Positions 1 through 5,545 of a stretch of 5,545 bases of DNA are shown piece by piece. Source of the stretch: Candidatus Hermodarchaeota archaeon (GTDB taxonomy: Archaea; Asgardarchaeota; Hermodarchaeia; Hermodarchaeales; Hermodarchaeaceae); the NCBI GenBank assembly GCA_016840595.1, contig JAEOSA010000138.1, forward strand, positions 1 to 5,545, in the 5' to 3' direction. The notes beneath the pieces are model-generated. The model was not told the DNA's origin. It did no database searches and was given only the letters and a program-made list of their open reading frames with translations. The stretch's first letter is position 1. Every line of letters begins with the position of its first letter. Position numbers and translations under genes: made by a program.

Positions 1-81
1 CCTCGCATTTTGGATGTGAAAGAACATCAGTCTGGAACAGTACGGATTCTAGATGATTCATCTTCAAATGACGATTCTTAG
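1..81 (+). CDS. C-terminal fragment of an unknown protein with an acidic tail
   Basis: Frame 1 is open from the left edge to a TAG at 79-81, giving 26 residues (begins PRILDVKEH, ends with an Asp/Ser-rich tail). The start lies outside the window and no domain can be named. The tail holds VRILDDSSSNDD, a short hydrophobic run followed by acidic and serine residues. The same pattern occurs in the next two genes, so this is probably a third member of the same functional set. The next gene starts 13 bases after this stop, and its ribosome binding site overlaps the stop codon, so the two are very likely co-transcribed. The reading frame is supported mainly by this motif and the tight junction. Confidence 0.6.
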   Translation, partial: PRILDVKEHQSGTVRILDDSSSNDDS

Positions 82-86
82 GTGAT
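80..86 (+). promoter_or_regulatory. Strong Shine-Dalgarno site of the 66-residue gene
   Basis: AGGTGAT matches the extended anti-Shine-Dalgarno complement at the 3' end of 16S rRNA. It lies 8 bases before the ATG at 95 and overlaps the TAG stop of the preceding gene. It is the best argument that the small gene at 95-295 is real. Confidence 0.6.
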
Positions 87-94
87 TTTGCGCA

Positions 95-295
95 ATGTCG
101 GACCGTCCACCTGATAAGGAAGGAGAAAAGGAAGAATCGGAAAAAAATAATGAACCGACATCAAATCGCATTGTTGTATTAAATGAACGGGATATACCCT
201 TTGAAGAAGAACGCCCACCGAATTTTTCACCACACTTTGCAGTTAAAGTGCATCGTGTTCGGAAAGACGCTCGTTCGGAGGAGAATGAAGAGTGA
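95..295 (+). CDS. Small highly charged protein, 66 residues, unknown function
   Basis: No known family is recognised. The N-terminal 24 residues are very rich in Glu, Lys, Asp and Pro and probably disordered. Residues 25-32 form RIVVLNER, a short hydrophobic strand-like segment followed by acidic residues (to FEEE at about 36-39). The C-terminal third is basic and then acidic. There are no cysteines, membrane segments or signal peptide, and the end is not Gly-Gly, so it is not an obvious ubiquitin-like modifier. A strong Shine-Dalgarno site supports the ATG. Its TGA stop overlaps the GTG start of the next gene in GTGA, which suggests translational coupling. The hydrophobic-acidic segment resembles those of both neighbours, so an adaptor or interaction-peptide role with the zinc protein is a reasonable guess, not shown. 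Confidence 0.7.
   Translation: MSDRPPDKEGEKEESEKNNEPTSNRIVVLNERDIPFEEERPPNFSPHFAVKVHRVRKDARSEENEE
277..283 (+). promoter_or_regulatory. Shine-Dalgarno site deciding the GTG start at 292
   Basis: GGAGGAG lies 8 bases before GTG 292, inside the end of the previous gene. It favours the GTG over the in-frame ATG at 316, which would begin just before the first zinc-ligand cysteine. Confidence 0.55.
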
Positions 296-669
296 GTGTA
301 CATGGTGCATCGCATATGAAGTGCGTAGCCTGTGCAAACCAAGTTTCACTGGATGAAGCACGACGTGAATGGTGGATTTGTACAACATGTGGTAGCTACA
401 TGTGCCCCAACTGTCGATCATTGTATCTTGAAACCGGGCAGGGAACCTGTCCTGGCACAATCGTTCGGGGGGTTGAATCTCACCCACCCCATTTCACACG
501 GTTCCTCGGTCCACGAGATGAACCAGAGGCTGTGTCACCTGAAACTCGTTCAACGGTGGTTATCTTAGAAGATGTGCGACGGAATCAGCCCCGTTCACCA
601 GGTGGTCGAGTGATTATCCTTGACGATGATGAAGCCCAAGATGAAGCTGACGAAGAAACGCAAGGTTAG
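292..669 (+). CDS. RING-like or treble-clef zinc protein with acidic, SIM-like tail
   Basis: A 125-residue protein. Residues 11-67 carry closely spaced potential zinc ligands: C11-x2-C14, C30-x2-C33, C38-x2-C41, C53, and H64 or H67 as an eighth. This is enough for two zinc ions in a RING, IBR or PHD-like arrangement. The segment WWICTTCGSYMCPNC has the W-x-C-x2-C-x4-C-x2-C spacing seen in such folds, but the order is not a textbook RING-H2 or C3HC4. From about residue 74 it appears disordered and holds two hydrophobic-acidic motifs: VVILED at 89-94 and VIILDDDE at 107-114, followed by a run of Asp and Glu. Beside E1-like and JAMM genes, an E3-ligase-like or adaptor role is plausible but inferred. 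It could instead be a zinc ribbon that binds nucleic acid or protein. The GTG start overlaps the previous stop, and the transglutaminase-like gene starts 5 bases downstream. Confidence 0.8.
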   Translation: MSVHGASHMKCVACANQVSLDEARREWWICTTCGSYMCPNCRSLYLETGQGTCPGTIVRGVESHPPHFTRFLGPRDEPEAVSPETRSTVVILEDVRRNQPRSPGGRVIILDDDEAQDEADEETQG

Positions 670-674
670 GAGCA

Positions 675-1550
675 ATGAAAACTTCCTCCACAATTCTTTC
701 TCACCGAGTCACCTATACAACCAAGATTCGCAATACCTCAGATAATCCGCTCTTCGGGATCCGAGTGTTTGTTGCCTTTCCGCCACCCCTCCCTCCTCGC
801 CAAGAACTCATTAATCTGACACCAATTCCTGTTTCGGGTCGTCAAGCCACAGATTTGAAAGGAAACCATTGGTTGGATTTGACCTGCGATCGATTAGCGG
901 GAAAGGAAACGTTCACGTGTGGTTACACTGCGTTGGTCCGGAATCGTTCCATTCATTTCAGACTGCCACTTTCTACTAGAAACCTCTCAGTACCCTCTAA
1001 TCTTATTGGATACACCAAACCAGAAAACTTCATTGAATCGCACCATCACCTAATCAAAGACCTAGCGCGTGACCTTTCCAACAAACACCCTAATCCCATA
1101 TCTTTCGTGAAAGCTGCAATGCGTGCGGTAACAAAAACAATTCGATACTCCCCTCAGAAGTATGAGCGCGGGGCTGCTTTTGCAATTGAAAACCACGTCG
1201 GGGATTGCACCGAATTTGCTGCATTATTTACGGCTCTCTGTCGAGCGAATGGAATTCCTGCAAGATTAGAAGCGGGATTTGCATATAGTGGAAAAAAGTG
1301 GGAACGGCATGCATGGAGTGTAGTGTGGATTCAGGACAACTGGATTCCCGTTGATCCGACGTGGTATGGCAACAGTGGTTGGTTGGGAGTGACAAACCGT
1401 CACATTCCCCTCATTATTGGTAACTGGATGGATATTCGTATCCACCAAGAGTTCAAGGTGTCGTGGTCGCATAAACCAAAAACAGCTCCACCACAACTGG
1501 GTTCAAAATGGAAGGTCACGAAAGTTGTGAGCATCCTGAATTCACGCTAG
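675..1550 (+). CDS. Transglutaminase-like cysteine peptidase with N-terminal beta domain
   Basis: A 291-residue transglutaminase-fold protein with a complete Cys-His-Asp triad. C178 is in HVGDCTEFAALF, H212 in ERHAWSVVW and D227 in WIPVDPTWYG. Residues 1-110 are beta-rich (for example HRVTYTTKIRN and IRVFVAFP), like the immunoglobulin or transthyretin-like domain that precedes many prokaryotic transglutaminase cores. Residues 115-160 form the helical lead-in ending in TKTIRYSP. There is no signal peptide or membrane segment, so it should be cytosolic, unlike many bacterial relatives. Prokaryotic members mostly act as thiol peptidases or amidases; the eukaryotic relative PNGase works in ubiquitin-linked degradation. 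Its place after the zinc protein and opposite the E1/JAMM pair suggests processing or removal of a peptide-linked modifier, but its substrate is unknown. AGGAG precedes the ATG by only 2 bases; the beta domain beginning at residue 8 argues against a later start. Confidence 0.9.
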   Translation: MKTSSTILSHRVTYTTKIRNTSDNPLFGIRVFVAFPPPLPPRQELINLTPIPVSGRQATDLKGNHWLDLTCDRLAGKETFTCGYTALVRNRSIHFRLPLSTRNLSVPSNLIGYTKPENFIESHHHLIKDLARDLSNKHPNPISFVKAAMRAVTKTIRYSPQKYERGAAFAIENHVGDCTEFAALFTALCRANGIPARLEAGFAYSGKKWERHAWSVVWIQDNWIPVDPTWYGNSGWLGVTNRHIPLIIGNWMDIRIHQEFKVSWSHKPKTAPPQLGSKWKVTKVVSILNSR

Positions 1551-2417
1551 TTATTTGTGTTTTCGTTTGTCCCGACAGAAAATCTCACTACATCGAGGAT
1601 TCGCCATAATTTGACCCGACGTGGCCTGATGTCGATTTAGGTCGTACTGGATAAACCGTCCCAAAGCAGGTTCTAAGCCTTCTTGCCACTGTCGCGTTTC
1701 TCGCCACTGTTTCAACCCCACAAGAACACGAACTGCCTCCCAGGCCATTACAGCACCCACCACAGATGTCACAAAACTAATCATAGGAAATCGCGGAACG
1801 GTGTCTACAAAGAAGGGGTCACATCGTGTCCGCACCTCATTGGCGACAACGTGGTCGACGAAGTCTTTACTCCACGAGCACACAAGACACGCTGTGTGAG
1901 GAGGAGCAAGCACCTCGACTGAGACGAAATCCTTGCCCATCGCCCCATTGATGATTGGACGCGGAGGGTCGAAGCTGAGATTTTTTGCATTCAGGAGGTA
2001 GCGGGCATAATGATTATCCACACCAACAAGGACTAACTGGGCATCCCAGACAGAATCAGGTGCCTGTTGTATAGCCACTGCATGAGGTTCCACAACAGTC
2101 TTTGTAGCTAATTCTGGTAACCTTTCGGCTACCGCGTCTACTTTGAATTTCGTATCATGATCTCCGGGTCGGAAGAAAACACAGCGATTAAGATTCGAAG
2201 CCGCTACTTTGTCCGGATCCACCAAGATGATTTTACCCACACCTAGCAGCCCAAGGTTTTTGCACACTTCATTACCAACAGCACCTACCCCAACCATGAG
2301 TACAGTAGATTGTTGGATGGTTTCGAGATTATTTGCTCCTAGCCAGCGTCGGGTTCGATCGTGTTGATCGCGTTCGAAGAAGCTAAGTTCAATCGGTGTT
2401 GGCAGGTCCTTTGTCAT
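1551..2417 (-). CDS. E1-like adenylyltransferase (ThiF/MoeB/UBA family)
   Basis: With the ATG at 2417 this is 288 residues, usual for single-domain MoeB/ThiF/UbaA-type enzymes that adenylate the C-terminal glycine of a beta-grasp protein. Visible motifs: nucleotide-binding GVGAVG at 43-48 in a Rossmann strand, Asp67 in ILVDPD, NLNR with the conserved Arg78, lysines 90 and 92 in DTKFK, Asp134 in VGVDN, CLVC at 177-180 as the first zinc pair, and C199 in RTRCDPF as the likely thioester cysteine. The second zinc pair is C276-x4-C281 instead of C-x2-C. There is no rhodanese domain, E2-binding ubiquitin-fold domain or fused E2. The frame stays open to an ATG at 2531, but the chosen ATG has GGGAG upstream (spacing 12) and starts just before the family's usual N-terminal helix. 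It overlaps the JAMM gene by 29 bases, so the two are probably translated together. Sulfur transfer (cofactor or tRNA thiolation) is the main alternative to protein modification. Confidence 0.9.
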   Translation of the reverse strand: MTKDLPTPIELSFFERDQHDRTRRWLGANNLETIQQSTVLMVGVGAVGNEVCKNLGLLGVGKIILVDPDKVAASNLNRCVFFRPGDHDTKFKVDAVAERLPELATKTVVEPHAVAIQQAPDSVWDAQLVLVGVDNHYARYLLNAKNLSFDPPRPIINGAMGKDFVSVEVLAPPHTACLVCSWSKDFVDHVVANEVRTRCDPFFVDTVPRFPMISFVTSVVGAVMAWEAVRVLVGLKQWRETRQWQEGLEPALGRFIQYDLNRHQATSGQIMANPRCSEIFCRDKRKHK

Positions 2418-3033
2418 GAAGGTCTGTCGCTCCCTGTTTTGGTTCATCAGCGATTGGTGCGACTTCGCCCAAGGGTACGGAGGGTTGGTAAGTACACCAG
2501 TCGACTTGTTCAAGTTGGAGACCAAGTTCACTGGGTCGGGGACGAAGCATATAGACTTTGAAAATGCAACTCAACGGGTCGATGAGGAAGAAAATGTTGC
2601 CCTCTGCACAGAAAGGCGTGTTGAAGAAGGTGCGTAAATCGGTAGAGGAAAACTGCGGGTCTCCACCGAATGGGTGTGAATGCCAAAGACCCACAACGCG
2701 AGGAGTATGTGGATTGGTGCCATATCGATCATGTAATGCAAGCCGGTACTCAAGAACGCCCTCTGGTGTAAACCTAGCATATGCCATGCTTGCTTCAACG
2801 CGACCAGTGGCCCAGTCAGTCACTCGGATGTAATTCTTTCCTTGCCAAGAACGTCGAAACCCAAGAATCACTCCTAACGCTTCACGAGGTGGTTGCTGAA
2901 TTGCCTCTTGATGACAAAAATTGAATATTTCTTTACAAGTCCTATTGTAGATGTAGACGGGAAATACAATATTGGTTCCATTCTCGGATCCCGATGCATT
3001 TGTTTCGGGTTGCGTTTTCAGTGGGAGTGGCAT
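2389..3033 (-). CDS. JAMM/MPN+ (JAB) zinc metalloprotease
   Basis: A 214-residue JAB-domain protein with a full JAMM motif: Glu51 in EALGVILG, His118 and His120 in LWHSHPFGG, and S129-x2-D132 in FSSTD. In this family these residues bind the zinc and the catalytic water and hydrolyse isopeptide or peptide bonds after a ubiquitin-like Gly-Gly end (Rpn11, AMSH, HvJAMM1). The spacing from the second His to Asp is 11 residues where Rpn11 and AMSH have 10. The MPN core spans about residues 25-165; the first 20 and last 40 residues look disordered. No signal peptide or second domain is present. It is the first gene of a two-gene unit with the E1-like gene, the arrangement expected for a modifier activation and removal or maturation pair. 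Bacterial sulfur-transfer operons also pair JAB with ThiF, so that role remains possible. The ATG at 3033 has no convincing Shine-Dalgarno site. Confidence 0.9.
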   Translation of the reverse strand: MPLPLKTQPETNASGSENGTNIVFPVYIYNRTCKEIFNFCHQEAIQQPPREALGVILGFRRSWQGKNYIRVTDWATGRVEASMAYARFTPEGVLEYRLALHDRYGTNPHTPRVVGLWHSHPFGGDPQFSSTDLRTFFNTPFCAEGNIFFLIDPLSCIFKVYMLRPRPSELGLQLEQVDWCTYQPSVPLGEVAPIADEPKQGATDLHDKGPANTD

Positions 3034-3228
3034 ATTTGGTTCACATCTTGGGGCAGAGTCCTCAATAGTTAAATGCTGGTGCTACACTCATATATTTTCA
3101 ATCAAAGTTAAAGAGGGAATATTATATCTGATTCAAAAATAACTTCGCCGCTTCAAAGCAGAGTCTGGCGAGTTCTCTTTCTTTTTCTTTCTATTATAGT
3201 TGTTACATTATTTTGCATTCATCTTTTC
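3034..3228. other. AT-rich divergent intergenic region
   Basis: These 195 bases separate the minus-strand JAMM gene from the first ATG of the plus-strand membrane gene. They hold the candidate TATA element near 3089-3100, an AAAGAGGGA Shine-Dalgarno-like site at 3110-3118, and a pyrimidine-rich tract at about 3173-3192. The last 117 bases are open in the reading frame of the membrane gene and probably belong to it. No RNA gene or repeat was recognised. Confidence 0.5.
3089..3100 (-). promoter_or_regulatory. Candidate archaeal BRE/TATA promoter for the JAMM-E1 pair
   Basis: On the minus strand the segment reads TGAAAATATATG, a purine-A-A-A BRE-like element running into a TATA-like core. It lies about 60 bases before the JAMM start, so transcription would start near 3066 and leave a leader of about 30 bases. 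The same AT-rich core is near-symmetric and could also serve the plus-strand membrane gene. The call rests on consensus match only. Confidence 0.35.
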
Positions 3229-3636
3229 ATGATGGAGCTTGCAAGGCAGGCTGCTTTGCGTCTAGATGCTTTGATGTATACTTGGAATTTAATGAGTAGT
3301 GGCATATTAATCGAGTTAGGAACTTGGTTACTAATTATGTGGCTAGTGATGTTTATCATTTTCTTTGCTATTCATCCAGGGCATAGAAGCAGCCCATATC
3401 CCCCTTTACTGATAGAGGGCTTCGCTTTCGGCGGATTACTCACAAGTCTTTGGACAGGACGTGTCCAAATTTTTCTTCAATTCAACTATACAACAACACC
3501 ACCCGCAGATATGTTACTTCAGGCAACTTTTGCCCTTCCTACGTACGAATTTATTTGTGTGGGATTAATGACGCTTATCGTGATCTTTACGATTTTCACC
3601 TGGTTTAGGGTGATAAAATTCAAATTAGTCACGTAG
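3229..3636 (+). CDS. Small integral membrane protein, unknown function
   Basis: From the first ATG this is 135 residues with clear membrane segments at about 26-48 (WLLIMWLVMFIIFF) and 107-128 (GLMTLIVIFTIF), and a weaker one at about 59-76 (IEGFAFGGLLTSLW). A Pro/His/Ser-rich loop (49-60) and a short basic C-terminus (RVIKFK) lie between or after them. No family is recognised. The ATG lacks a Shine-Dalgarno site. The frame stays open upstream to a TAA at 3109-3111 and encodes another hydrophobic stretch (VLFLFLSIIVVTLF), so the protein may really begin at a non-ATG codon near 3121 and have about 171 residues and four membrane helices. The gene is visibly more AT-rich than its neighbours. It is isolated, with opposing genes on both sides, and nothing ties it to the E1/JAMM system. 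Confidence 0.7.
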   Translation: MMELARQAALRLDALMYTWNLMSSGILIELGTWLLIMWLVMFIIFFAIHPGHRSSPYPPLLIEGFAFGGLLTSLWTGRVQIFLQFNYTTTPPADMLLQATFALPTYEFICVGLMTLIVIFTIFTWFRVIKFKLVT

Positions 3637-3680
3637 ACTTATTCTCATTACAACCATAATAGACCCGTTGTAGAAATCGG

Positions 3681-5156
3681 CTAGAACCGTGAAAGAGTGG
3701 ATGTTTCACCAAGTCTAGTAGACCAAGGATATCGTTCCATGATATTATCTAAGAGACGATGAAGTTTTGTAACTTCAGAAGTATTAGAGTAGACAAGAAA
3801 GACAACACACCCACCACGACTGCGTTTCATTTTCTGATAAATTGTCTTTGTTGTATTCACCGTATCACATATGATGAGTAGATCTGTATCAGGTAAATCC
3901 AGGTCACGTTCACCTACAGGAGAGAGGATGACAGCAGCAGGAGGTTTGGCTTGCCTGAACTCTGAGAGTACAGCTTGTTTATCCATCGTCCGCCCTGTAA
4001 GTTGAAAGGTTTGGACTCCTTGCTCTTTGAGGAGGCGTTCGATTTCGCTGACAACATTTAGGTATGAAGAGAGTATTACGGTTTTTCCTGCATTCAGAGC
4101 AAGATCTCGGGCTTTGATGGATTTTGGTGTAGTTTTGGGCCAGTCTTGCATCATTCGGTTGACATCGATTTGGGGTTTAATAGAAGGGTGATGGAGATAG
4201 CGTCGAAAGCTCTTTGCAGACATGCCGTAGAGGTATTTCCGAATCATCAGTAGTCCACTATATTTTTCTCCGAGTTCTTCGGGGATGGGTAGTTCGTGGA
4301 GCATCAGGTGAAGTAACCGGGTGTTTTCGGGAAGCATATTGACTGGTTCTTTTGTAGCTTCTCGAACGGTTTCATAGATTTCTTCTCGAGTAGACTGGAT
4401 GAGGTCATCGAGGACAAGAGCCATGGCCCGAATAACAGGATTCTGAACTGGAGCTGCGTCAAGGATGGTGGGTTTGATATATTGCTTCAAGTCAGTGCCA
4501 ACGAGTTCATCCATACTAATCAATTCAACATTAGTCAGAAAGGTTGCTAGGGTTTGGAGTTCATCTCGGATTTGAATCTGAGCGTTGTTGAAGATGACAT
4601 GGTCATCGCGGAGGGTTCCGCTGAGCCCAATAATCCATCGGCCCTTGAAGAAGTCAAGGAGGAAACTCCACGGTTGTATGAGAACTCGATTATGACCAAC
4701 GCGACGGAGGATGGTATCTACCTCGTTGATGAGGAGTCCTTCGAAGTGTTCAGGGGAGAGTTCACCTTTTCGGAGGATATTTGCTAGGACACGAGGGGTA
4801 CAGAGGACGACGCGGGAGCCACGTAGGAGTTTCACTCGTTGGGGTCCACGTACAAATGGTGTAAGGACGCCTAACCCTTCAACGCCGCCGTATTCTTCTT
4901 CGAGGTATTGGGCGGTTTCTTGGAGTGAGGACGAGGAGTTGACGGTGATGACAAAGCGTGTGGTGGGAAAGAGTTCGGTGACAAGTTTGTAAGTGAGGAC
5001 ACGTTTTCCGAGGCCGCAATCTAATTCCACGAGGATGTTGCAGTCGCGGTTTTCTTTAATCCGTTTGAGAATATGTTCTTGATATTGTCGTGTGTCAAAT
5101 CGTGGTGTGACGGAATCGCAACCTGGTGGGTTTGAGAGAGGTGGAGTGGGTGACAT
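3681..5156 (-). CDS. Divergent SF2 helicase-like protein, Hef/FANCM-like, degenerate ATPase motifs
   Basis: About 491 residues with two RecA-like domains in SF2 order (positions counted from the GTG at 5162). A Q-motif-like RQYQEHIL is at 25-32. The Walker A region is DCGLGKR at 48-54, with Arg in place of the usual Thr/Ser after Lys. Motif Ib is at 121-130 (CTPRVLANIL). Motif II is NEVD at 146-149 instead of DExD/H. Motif III is LSGT at 180-183, motif IV begins TVILSSYLN at 361, motif V is SPVGERDLDLPDTD at 414-427, and motif VI is the weak QKMKRSRGG at 443-451. The PVGE-x2-LDLP segment and a long helical insert between the lobes (about 200-350) recall archaeal Hef and eukaryotic FANCM/Mph1, but the ERCC4 nuclease and HhH parts are absent. 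ATP turnover may be weak or lost. The ATG at 5156 has AAGGA at spacing 9 and is preferred to GTG 5162 at spacing 3. It follows the HAD gene by 24 bases, probably in one operon. Confidence 0.8.
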   Translation of the reverse strand: MSPTPPLSNPPGCDSVTPRFDTRQYQEHILKRIKENRDCNILVELDCGLGKRVLTYKLVTELFPTTRFVITVNSSSSLQETAQYLEEEYGGVEGLGVLTPFVRGPQRVKLLRGSRVVLCTPRVLANILRKGELSPEHFEGLLINEVDTILRRVGHNRVLIQPWSFLLDFFKGRWIIGLSGTLRDDHVIFNNAQIQIRDELQTLATFLTNVELISMDELVGTDLKQYIKPTILDAAPVQNPVIRAMALVLDDLIQSTREEIYETVREATKEPVNMLPENTRLLHLMLHELPIPEELGEKYSGLLMIRKYLYGMSAKSFRRYLHHPSIKPQIDVNRMMQDWPKTTPKSIKARDLALNAGKTVILSSYLNVVSEIERLLKEQGVQTFQLTGRTMDKQAVLSEFRQAKPPAAVILSPVGERDLDLPDTDLLIICDTVNTTKTIYQKMKRSRGGCVVFLVYSNTSEVTKLHRLLDNIMERYPWSTRLGETSTLSRF

Positions 5157-5167
5157 CTTCACTTTTC

Positions 5168-5172
5168 CTTTA
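5168..5172 (-). promoter_or_regulatory. Shine-Dalgarno site of the helicase-like gene
   Basis: On the minus strand AAGGA precedes ATG 5156 by about 9 bases and GTG 5162 by about 3, which favours the ATG. It sits in the short gap after the HAD gene's stop, consistent with co-transcription. Confidence 0.45.
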
Positions 5173-5180
5173 TCAACAAG

Positions 5181-5545
5181 CTAGATAAGTTGCTCAATTT
5201 CTGCAATTGAGTTAAGGATGTGATTGGCGAAGGGTTTCAAGTCCTCTGTGGTTCCAAATCCCGTTAGGACACCTATTGTCACGAAGCCGAGGTTTTGTGC
5301 GGCTTCGAGTTCTCCAGCAGAATCACCGATAATCCAGACATCTCCTTCAGATTTGACGTCTTGAAGGGCTAACTGGATGAGTCGGCGGCGGTGGGGAAGA
5401 AAGGGAAATAGCGGAATGCGTTCCTTTCCTTCTGCCTGAGCTAGATCTCCACGGGTGAATATTTTCTCGAAGCACTTGTAGAGGCCAAACCTGTGGATTT
5501 CTTGACGGGTTTGATCGATGGCTTGTCGTGAAGTGATTAATCGCA
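5181..5545 (-). CDS. HAD-superfamily hydrolase, C-terminal 120 residues (partial)
   Basis: The minus strand is open from the right edge to a TAG at 5183-5181, giving 120 residues; the N-terminus with the nucleophile Asp motif lies outside the window. Visible HAD motifs are ITSRQA at 3-8 of the fragment (motif II, Ser/Thr), a lysine in EGKERIP at about 40 (motif III), and WIIGDSAGELEAAQNLG from 70 (motif IV, the acidic Mg-binding loop with D74 and E78). The tail GVLTGFGTTEDL and the final helix match phosphoglycolate-phosphatase-like (Gph/PGP) members, which hydrolyse small phosphate esters in the cytosol. The substrate cannot be told from this part. The usual Lys-Pro of motif III is replaced by a Pro/Phe/Arg-rich loop (RIPLFPFLPHRRR). 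It lies directly upstream of the helicase-like gene and probably shares its transcript. Confidence 0.85.
   Translation of the reverse strand, partial: RLITSRQAIDQTRQEIHRFGLYKCFEKIFTRGDLAQAEGKERIPLFPFLPHRRRLIQLALQDVKSEGDVWIIGDSAGELEAAQNLGFVTIGVLTGFGTTEDLKPFANHILNSIAEIEQLI

Follow-up and report, generated by a model that had tools for sequence, protein, structure and literature searches.

Which partners work with the E1-like enzyme and the JAMM metallopeptidase encoded side by side in an Asgard archaeon? The locus is a stretch of 5,545 nucleotides (nt) from Candidatus Hermodarchaeota archaeon (assembly GCA_016840595.1, contig JAEOSA010000138.1, positions 1 to 5,545 of the forward strand), called the window here, in which these two genes face genes for a Cys-rich zinc protein (Zn) and a transglutaminase-fold cysteine peptidase (TG). 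A sequence-only reading of the window had taken the facing operons for one modifier system and had reported that no modifier or E2 was visible. We followed the genes through 227 genomes of the Asgard phylum, eight of which form the class Hermodarchaeia. The window probably covers the downstream end of a gene island of Asgard archaea in which a dedicated ubiquitin-like conjugation cascade is functionally coupled to a complex of the SMC5/6 type.

The candidate modifier cascade

A search with the window's Zn protein matched one contig (L001), of the Candidatus Hermodarchaeum yapensis genome (G001), at 94% identity; the window is from a relative of this archaeon. Window bases 1-81 translate to PRILDVKEHQSGTVRILDDSSSNDDS followed by a stop codon. 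Their counterpart in L001 is the end of a 253-residue E2 gene (L001:9029-9790), which is preceded by a 108-residue gene for the candidate modifier; both genes lie upstream of the window counterpart. The window therefore does hold part of an E2, its tail, and the modifier and the complete E2 are found just outside it. Neither L001 protein has a Pfam match above the cut-off, and PDB searches with their single sequences returned chance matches only. The 253-residue protein carries YP...HPRLSASGTGHAC, and the E2 signature HPR..C is invariant. An E2 profile was assembled from 60 sequences, the L001 protein and 59 picked from 93 relatives, whose source names, where given, are Heimdallarchaeota, Thorarchaeota, Hodarchaeota, Promethearchaeota and other Asgard groups, plus one labelled Zixibacteria. 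Compared with three canonical Asgard E2s, the profile scored a probability of 92.9 (E 3.8e-7) with HPR..AC aligned on HPN..VC, and C134 was invariant in 60 of 60 sequences. These data point to an E2 homologue with C134 as the candidate catalytic cysteine.

The modifier family occurs in 19 of the 227 genomes, and the E2 family occurs in the same 19, each in one copy. These genomes are the eight Hermodarchaeia (G001-G008), a second lineage (G063-G071) and a third (G061 and G062). All 19 genomes (20 rows, with one gene entered twice) have valine and glycine at V104-G105 of the modifier. In Hermodarchaeia a short extension (FSS, F, Q, IK or D) comes after the glycine; the second lineage has none, and the third has F or none, so that the C-terminus looks like that of a precursor trimmed by the JAMM. 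A search of the 227 genomes with the ubiquitin-like YukD family did not recover the island proteins and found another family of ubiquitin-like proteins with E1 instead. Those of its members that were read have STAG at or close to the C-terminus, and an E1-like gene is adjacent to most of them; their loci lie outside this island (L227, L228, L230, L232, L234-L238, L240, L241 and L243-L245). At L233, an E1-like gene and further genes stand together.

The E1 and JAMM families follow nearly the same distribution. E1 is found at E <=4e-89 in 18 of the 19 island genomes, with five further genomes at 9e-41 to 6e-46, and JAMM at E <=1.5e-43 in the same 18, with 21 further genomes at 5e-11 to 3.5e-17. 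The exception is G061, in which the JAMM gene is truncated by the contig edge and E1 was not found at 1e-40. A locus of G099 (L213 5959-7345) holds an adjacent JAMM-E1 pair that is distantly related to the island pair (E 4e-12 and 3e-44). Conserved residues were counted in alignments of the fetched relatives, in which blanks are gaps, mostly or all from reading frames truncated at contig ends; the G006 E1 and JAMM are outside these rows. C199 and the four zinc cysteines of E1 are kept in 17 of 17 rows, and its GxGxxG, D and NR positions in 16 (one blank). Aligned with the canonical E1 of the same cell (E 2.6e-20), the island E1 places C199 on a cysteine of the canonical enzyme. These data argue for an activating E1 with nucleotide-binding motifs and C199 as the candidate catalytic cysteine. 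JAMM E51 is kept in 18 of 18 rows, and H118, H120, S129 and D132 in 17 (one blank), which makes the protein a candidate processing or deconjugating peptidase with intact active-site residues. With the E1 start at 2417 the two genes overlap by 29 nt; the E1 reading frame has an alternative start at 2531. The Cys-His-Asp triad of TG is kept in 20 of 21 rows (one blank; one gene entered twice).

Zn has the pattern C-X2-C-X15-C-X2-C-X4-C-X2-C-X11-C-X10-H, spaced as in binuclear cross-brace fingers. Its ligands C11, C14, C30, C33, C38, C41, C53 and H64 are kept in 16 of 16 rows and H67 in eight; two of the 16 rows sit at the place of ZnP, a second zinc protein introduced below, in genomes lacking the modifier. 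RING/FYVE-type and other zinc-finger matches to Zn in Pfam all fall below the cut-off. A Zn-family match was also seen in G107 (E 6e-4).

A single adenylation domain with a zinc C4 site resembles MoeB and ThiF (65 and 60 bits), and the cluster might on this ground be a sulfur-carrier system of the ThiS, MoaD or SAMP type in which the small protein delivers sulfur and the JAMM regulates. We consider this highly improbable. An E2 homologue accompanies the modifier in all its genomes, the modifier ends in VG rather than GG, and H. yapensis has three other ThiF-family genes that score higher. The sequence-only reading had itself raised the prospect of an E1-JAMM pair always found with a ThiS/MoaD-type carrier and cofactor genes; none is present among the annotated neighbours, and no search with ThiS or MoaD models was made. 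That reading had also suggested looking for an E2 and for a beta-grasp protein ending in GG. The E2 is there; the small protein ends in VG and gives weak matches to the ubiquitin-like YukD family.

The cascade stands beside ordinary ubiquitin. Among the 13 island genomes checked of the 19, canonical E2 scored above the cut-off in 13 and canonical ubiquitin in 12, and the seven canonical ubiquitins read end in TEGG. If the cascade works as proposed below, some Asgard cells would have two ubiquitin-like pathways side by side, comparable to ubiquitin and SUMO in eukaryotes.

The SMC operon and its linkage to the cascade

Another operon of the island encodes an SMC ATPase, a putative kleisin (ScpA-like), a winged-helix kite (ScpB-like) and ZnP. 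The H. yapensis genome has, in addition, a canonical SMC of 1187 residues with an SMC_prok_A match at 5e-236, compared with 1e-26 for the island SMC, whose match to SMC_prok_B is at 4e-35. A profile of 11 island-type SMCs, including those of L045 and L055 from genomes lacking the modifier, was compared with the PDB. Among the best 60 of 75 matches, SMC6 scored 121-118 and 105 bits, prokaryotic Smc 94, SMC4 90, SMC3 64 and SMC5 58. Coiled coils might inflate such scores, and two coil-free pieces were therefore run separately. The hinge matched SMC6 chains only (E 8e-4), the next match being unrelated at 0.19; other SMC hinges are present in the PDB and were recovered by the canonical SMC control. 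The C-terminal head matched SMC5 first (48.3 bits), followed by other SMCs (45.5 and 44.1) and SMC6 (42.3). In the control with the canonical SMC, prokaryotic Smc (564 bits) and SMC1-4 led, and no SMC5/6 appeared in the best 60 of 104. By profile, these data place the island SMC with the SMC5/6 type rather than the SMC1-4 type.

The kite gave weak winged-helix (MarR_2) matches in nine of 11 sequences and an SMC_Nse1 match in one of 11 (E 0.0027). A motif had suggested by eye that the kite is a MAGE/Nse3 protein; this candidate was dropped, with no MAGE match in Pfam or the PDB. Kite matches occur in 50 of the 227 genomes, 42 at E <1e-28 and eight between 1e-28 and 1e-3, and the stronger class covers 18 of the 19 island genomes, the exception being G008, where the contig is cut. 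ZnP is a paralogue of Zn inside the SMC operon (E 9e-9 to 4e-7 in seven of eight Hermodarchaeia). It shares the Zn ligand frame, in which its second position is C or H. This cross-brace-like pattern has no family match above the cut-off. Zn and ZnP are candidates for an E3-like role.

Gene order was compared in neighbourhood maps with mechanically assigned gene starts (first start codon). In all eight Hermodarchaeia the SMC and modifier genes are divergent, head-to-head neighbours 194-388 nt apart. The ZnP, ScpB-like, ScpA-like and SMC genes are directed away from modifier-E2-p66-Zn-TG, p66 being a 66-residue linker protein, and the E1-JAMM pair faces them in the seven genomes whose contig extends there; the G006 pair is on a separate contig. 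The second lineage has the one-strand order SMC-ScpA-ScpB-ZnP-JAMM-E1-modifier-E2-p66, found on a single contig in six of nine genomes (the G071 SMC is truncated by the contig end); the other three loci are broken by contig ends and show no contrary order. Its ZnP-JAMM junctions have gaps of 16-34 nt, and the E2 and p66 genes share 4 nt in nine of nine genomes. p66 lies between E2 and Zn in Hermodarchaeia and directly 3' of E2 in the second lineage, where Zn, when found, is 6.3-8.9 kb past p66 (G064, G067, G069 and G071) or about 40 kb off (G065), mostly with TG alongside, so that the Zn-TG pair stands apart from the modifier genes. In the third lineage modifier, E2 and TG are together in both genomes, and G061 has SMC-ScpA-ScpB-ZnP-JAMM together with JAMM beside ZnP. 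E2 identity between the first and second lineages is only about 34-39%, which indicates that the linkage is old or strongly selected, or that the genes moved as a block.

The SMC module is more widespread than the cascade. Seven loci lacking the modifier (L045, L054, L055, L203, L204, L205 and L211) have SMC-ScpA-ScpB with a ZnP-like gene in every case. In the five that are long enough, TG and the SMC operon are 6.3-7.6 kb apart; L054 and L055 are too short. The proposal that TG acts on the modifier is consequently doubtful, since TG accompanies the SMC operon where there is no modifier and the Zn-TG pair is separate in the second lineage. Other parts of the sequence-only reading held in outline. 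E1, JAMM and TG were confirmed by Pfam and alignments and the zinc protein by its ligands. The genomes with E1 and JAMM also have an E2 and one particular small protein, in support of one modifier system. The SMC5/6-type operon that belongs to the conserved unit had been missed. A patternless separation of the plus-strand operon from E1-JAMM in related genomes, which that reading had envisaged as an outcome against it, was not seen: in Hermodarchaeia the two are together and Zn and TG are linked to the pair, with Zn-TG separate in the second lineage as described.

Several observations weigh against an SMC5/6-type complex working with its own modifier. The modifier ends in VG and not GG. YukD matches three of nine members (best E 0.047) and DUF7054 two of nine (best E 0.012), there was no relevant PDB match, comparisons with canonical ubiquitin and with other Asgard ubiquitin-like proteins were insignificant (probabilities 2.5 and 2.1), and the single-sequence structure model is poor (pLDDT 44). 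The G062 contig with E1 has no other island gene. SMC6 ranks first by profile and not by single sequence: the L001 SMC alone scored 68 bits against prokaryotic Smc, 47 against SMC3, 41 against SMC4 and 39 against SMC6 in the PDB. The SMC5 margin of the C-terminal head is narrow. No ScpA, ScpB or MAGE match was obtained for kleisin or kite (for the kleisin, with the L001 copy only), and both names derive from position and weak winged-helix matches. ZnP of Hermodarchaeia lacks one cysteine of the pattern. Finally, the kite is present at E <1e-28 in 24 of the 227 genomes without the modifier family, so that the SMC complex does not require the modifier.

This last point, with the seven SMC loci that lack the cascade and the divergent arrangement in Hermodarchaeia, is what would be said for a genuine ubiquitin-like cascade that is merely the neighbour of an SMC operon, the two sharing a promoter region and an inherited order with no functional coupling. 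We regard this as unlikely. The second lineage has been rearranged into a co-directional run with short ZnP-JAMM gaps despite the low E2 identity, JAMM follows ZnP in G061 too, and a paralogue of Zn is located within the SMC operon. Even less probable is a role in defence against phages or plasmids, as in Bil, Bub, type II CBASS, Wadjet or Lamassu systems. The PADLOC models for E1-E2 (5e-15) and JAB (4e-5) match E1 and JAMM, and the LmuB (1e-27) and JetC (1e-10) models match SMC, but these matches look like general family similarity. Modifier and E2 are single-copy, the island is in eight of eight Hermodarchaeia and not patchy there, the same genes flank it wherever a Hermodarchaeia contig extends, and the annotated island genes include no nuclease, cyclase or pore gene.

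A shared motif and a possible mechanism

A short hydrophobic-acidic motif recurs in several island proteins. It was counted with the pattern [VIM][RKVQE][IV][IL][DENG or end] in rows of which some are gene fragments; the sequences had been read before the pattern was composed, and the counts are therefore descriptive and not a test. There are 29 occurrences in the 20 rows of E2 (shuffled mean 1.1), 13 in the 16 rows of Zn (0.4) and five in the 17 rows of p66 (0.2). There are 11 in 16 TG rows (1.7), all in four second-lineage proteins, and seven in 16 kleisin rows (1.2), in the second lineage only. Counts were five in 20 rows for SMC (5.5), two in 16 for E1 (1.2), two in 16 for JAMM (0.7) and one in four for the membrane protein of Table 1 (0.2). 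The motif was absent from the modifier, kite and ZnP, and from 34 flanking proteins (HAD1, HAD2, HDAC, Hel, MaeB and S; summed shuffled mean 3.0). The V/I-x-I-L/I-plus-acid arrangement resembles that of SUMO-interacting motifs (SIMs), and on this likeness of sequence we take it to be a candidate SIM.

We propose the following scheme for a cascade coupled to the SMC complex. The JAMM would trim the one to three residues after the modifier VG, where present, and would later remove the modifier from its targets. The single-domain E1 would adenylate the C-terminal glycine and carry the modifier on C199, and E2 would receive it on C134. Zn and ZnP may act as E3-like adaptors, with ZnP bringing the cascade to the SMC complex. 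The repeated motif, present in the tails of E2, p66 and Zn and also in some TGs and kleisins of the second lineage, could bring these proteins together on a single partner, the simplest candidate being the modifier. The targets would be SMC subunits or proteins bound to DNA.

The window features are collected in Table 1. p66 has no family match in a Pfam scan. The small membrane-like protein gene was not found in the G007 and G008 loci. All seven Hermodarchaeia loci that extend to the helicase have it upstream of JAMM-E1 and on the strand of that pair, and in G007 the end of the helicase gene and the start of JAMM share 1 nt; the helicase may be part of the same unit as JAMM-E1. In relatives, the HAD hydrolase is followed by another HAD gene and by a gene named by eye as malic-enzyme-like. 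At the far end of the SMC operon a histone-deacetylase-like gene (named by eye; L001 2658-3629) adjoins ZnP, and it is present in all seven Hermodarchaeia loci that extend to it.

Table 1. Features of the window, with loci from other contigs in the last row.
Feature	Position	Strand	Remarks
E2-like enzyme, C-terminal tail	1..81	+	PRIL and VRIL motifs; gene starts upstream of window; from translation and complete L001 gene
p66, 66-residue linker protein	95..295	+	motif IVVLNERD; conserved PPNxxPxF
Hydrophobic-acidic motif IVVLNERD inside p66	170..193	+	
Zn, Cys-rich zinc protein	292..669	+	cross-brace-like ligand pattern, then tail with two motifs
VVILED, Zn tail motif 1	556..573	+	
VIILDDDE, Zn tail motif 2	610..633	+	
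TG, transglutaminase-fold cysteine peptidase	675..1550	+	triad C178 H212 D227; Transglut_core E 2.7e-23 (Pfam)
E1-like activating enzyme	1551..2417	-	single adenylation domain, zinc C4, candidate catalytic C199; ThiF E 1.4e-33 (Pfam)
JAMM metallopeptidase	2389..3033	-	E51, H118-S-H120-P, S129, D132; Prok-JAB E 1.8e-8 (Pfam)
Small membrane-like protein, between JAMM and helicase	3229-3636	+	no family match (Pfam)
Helicase	3681-5162	-	Helicase_C and ResIII (Pfam); Hef-like NCBIfam match E 6.5e-10
HAD-family hydrolase, truncated by window end	5181-5545	-	Pfam
Loci without modifier system, TG 6.3-7.6 kb from SMC operon	L203 2277-3881; L204 16393-18000; L205 16295-17896; L211 2-1492; L045 368-1978		

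Comparison with known systems

The UFM1-UBA5-UFC1 system has a single-domain E1, and UFM1 matures at a C-terminal VG; it uses a cysteine protease where the island has a JAMM. The island E1 is likewise single-domain and the island modifier likewise has VG. UFM1 was not matched by the modifier in Pfam or PDB searches, and kinship was set aside because UBA5 gave the island E1 no better score than did MoeB or ThiF, which leaves UFM1 as an analogy only. In the portion of PMC10183829 available to us, UFM1 and UFC1 were observed in eukaryotes only. The SAMP, ThiS and MoaD systems have a GG carrier and no E2, in contrast to the VG modifier and the co-occurring E2 of the island. The Bil operons (PMC11354881) and operon type 6d of Iyer et al. 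2006 (PMC1779556), as far as excerpts of these sources describe them, resemble the island in having a ubiquitin-like protein, E1, E2 and JAB in one operon. BilD differs in having two adenylation domains and BilA in having two ubiquitin domains (excerpts of PMC11354881), and SMC is mentioned in the main text of neither source, to the extent that these texts were available.

The Caldiarchaeum subterraneum locus Ub-E1-E2-srfp-Rpn11, as given in excerpts of PMC5654768, is closer in content: modifier, E1, E2, a small zinc/RING protein and a JAMM peptidase share one locus, with the JAMM transcribed against the operon. The island differs in its VG-ended modifier, which has neither GG nor significant similarity to ubiquitin, and in its E2, which has HPR instead of HPN and no Pfam match. 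It also adds the SMC operon, p66 and the transglutaminase, and coexists with canonical E2 and ubiquitin in the genomes checked. Archaeal SMCs described as SMC5/6-related are already known from the accessible part of PMC9389158. They share with the island a second divergent SMC beside the canonical one; the word ubiquitin is absent from the main text of that paper, as far as it was accessible. We found no paper describing a linkage of a modifier cascade with an SMC5/6-type complex in Asgard archaea, in a search without subscription papers and preprints.

Eukaryotic SMC5/6 has a built-in SUMO ligase, Nse2, and a built-in ubiquitin ligase, Nse1, and its Nse5 binds SUMO via SIMs (excerpts of PMC8327961). 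The likeness to the island lies in an SMC with an SMC6-like hinge and an SMC5/6-like C-terminal head by profile, a small putative kleisin, a winged-helix partner, a zinc protein, a ubiquitin-like pathway and SIM-like motifs. The differences are that every island read has one SMC gene and not two, that the kite has no MAGE match and the weak Nse1 match noted above, and that E1, E2, modifier and JAMM are encoded within the same island. The island is possibly an Asgard forerunner or an independent counterpart of the eukaryotic alliance of SMC5/6 with SUMO and ubiquitin, a view to which we give somewhat less than an even chance: an SMC5/6-like complex would be encoded as one unit with a modifier, E1, E2, JAMM and zinc adaptors dedicated to it, in a cell that also has ordinary ubiquitin, and SIM-like motifs would tie the parts together. 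With an SMC5/6-type SMC and a ubiquitin-like cascade adjacent across diverged Asgard lineages, the origin of the eukaryotic partnership of SMC5/6 with SUMO and ubiquitin ligases becomes testable with about a dozen small proteins.

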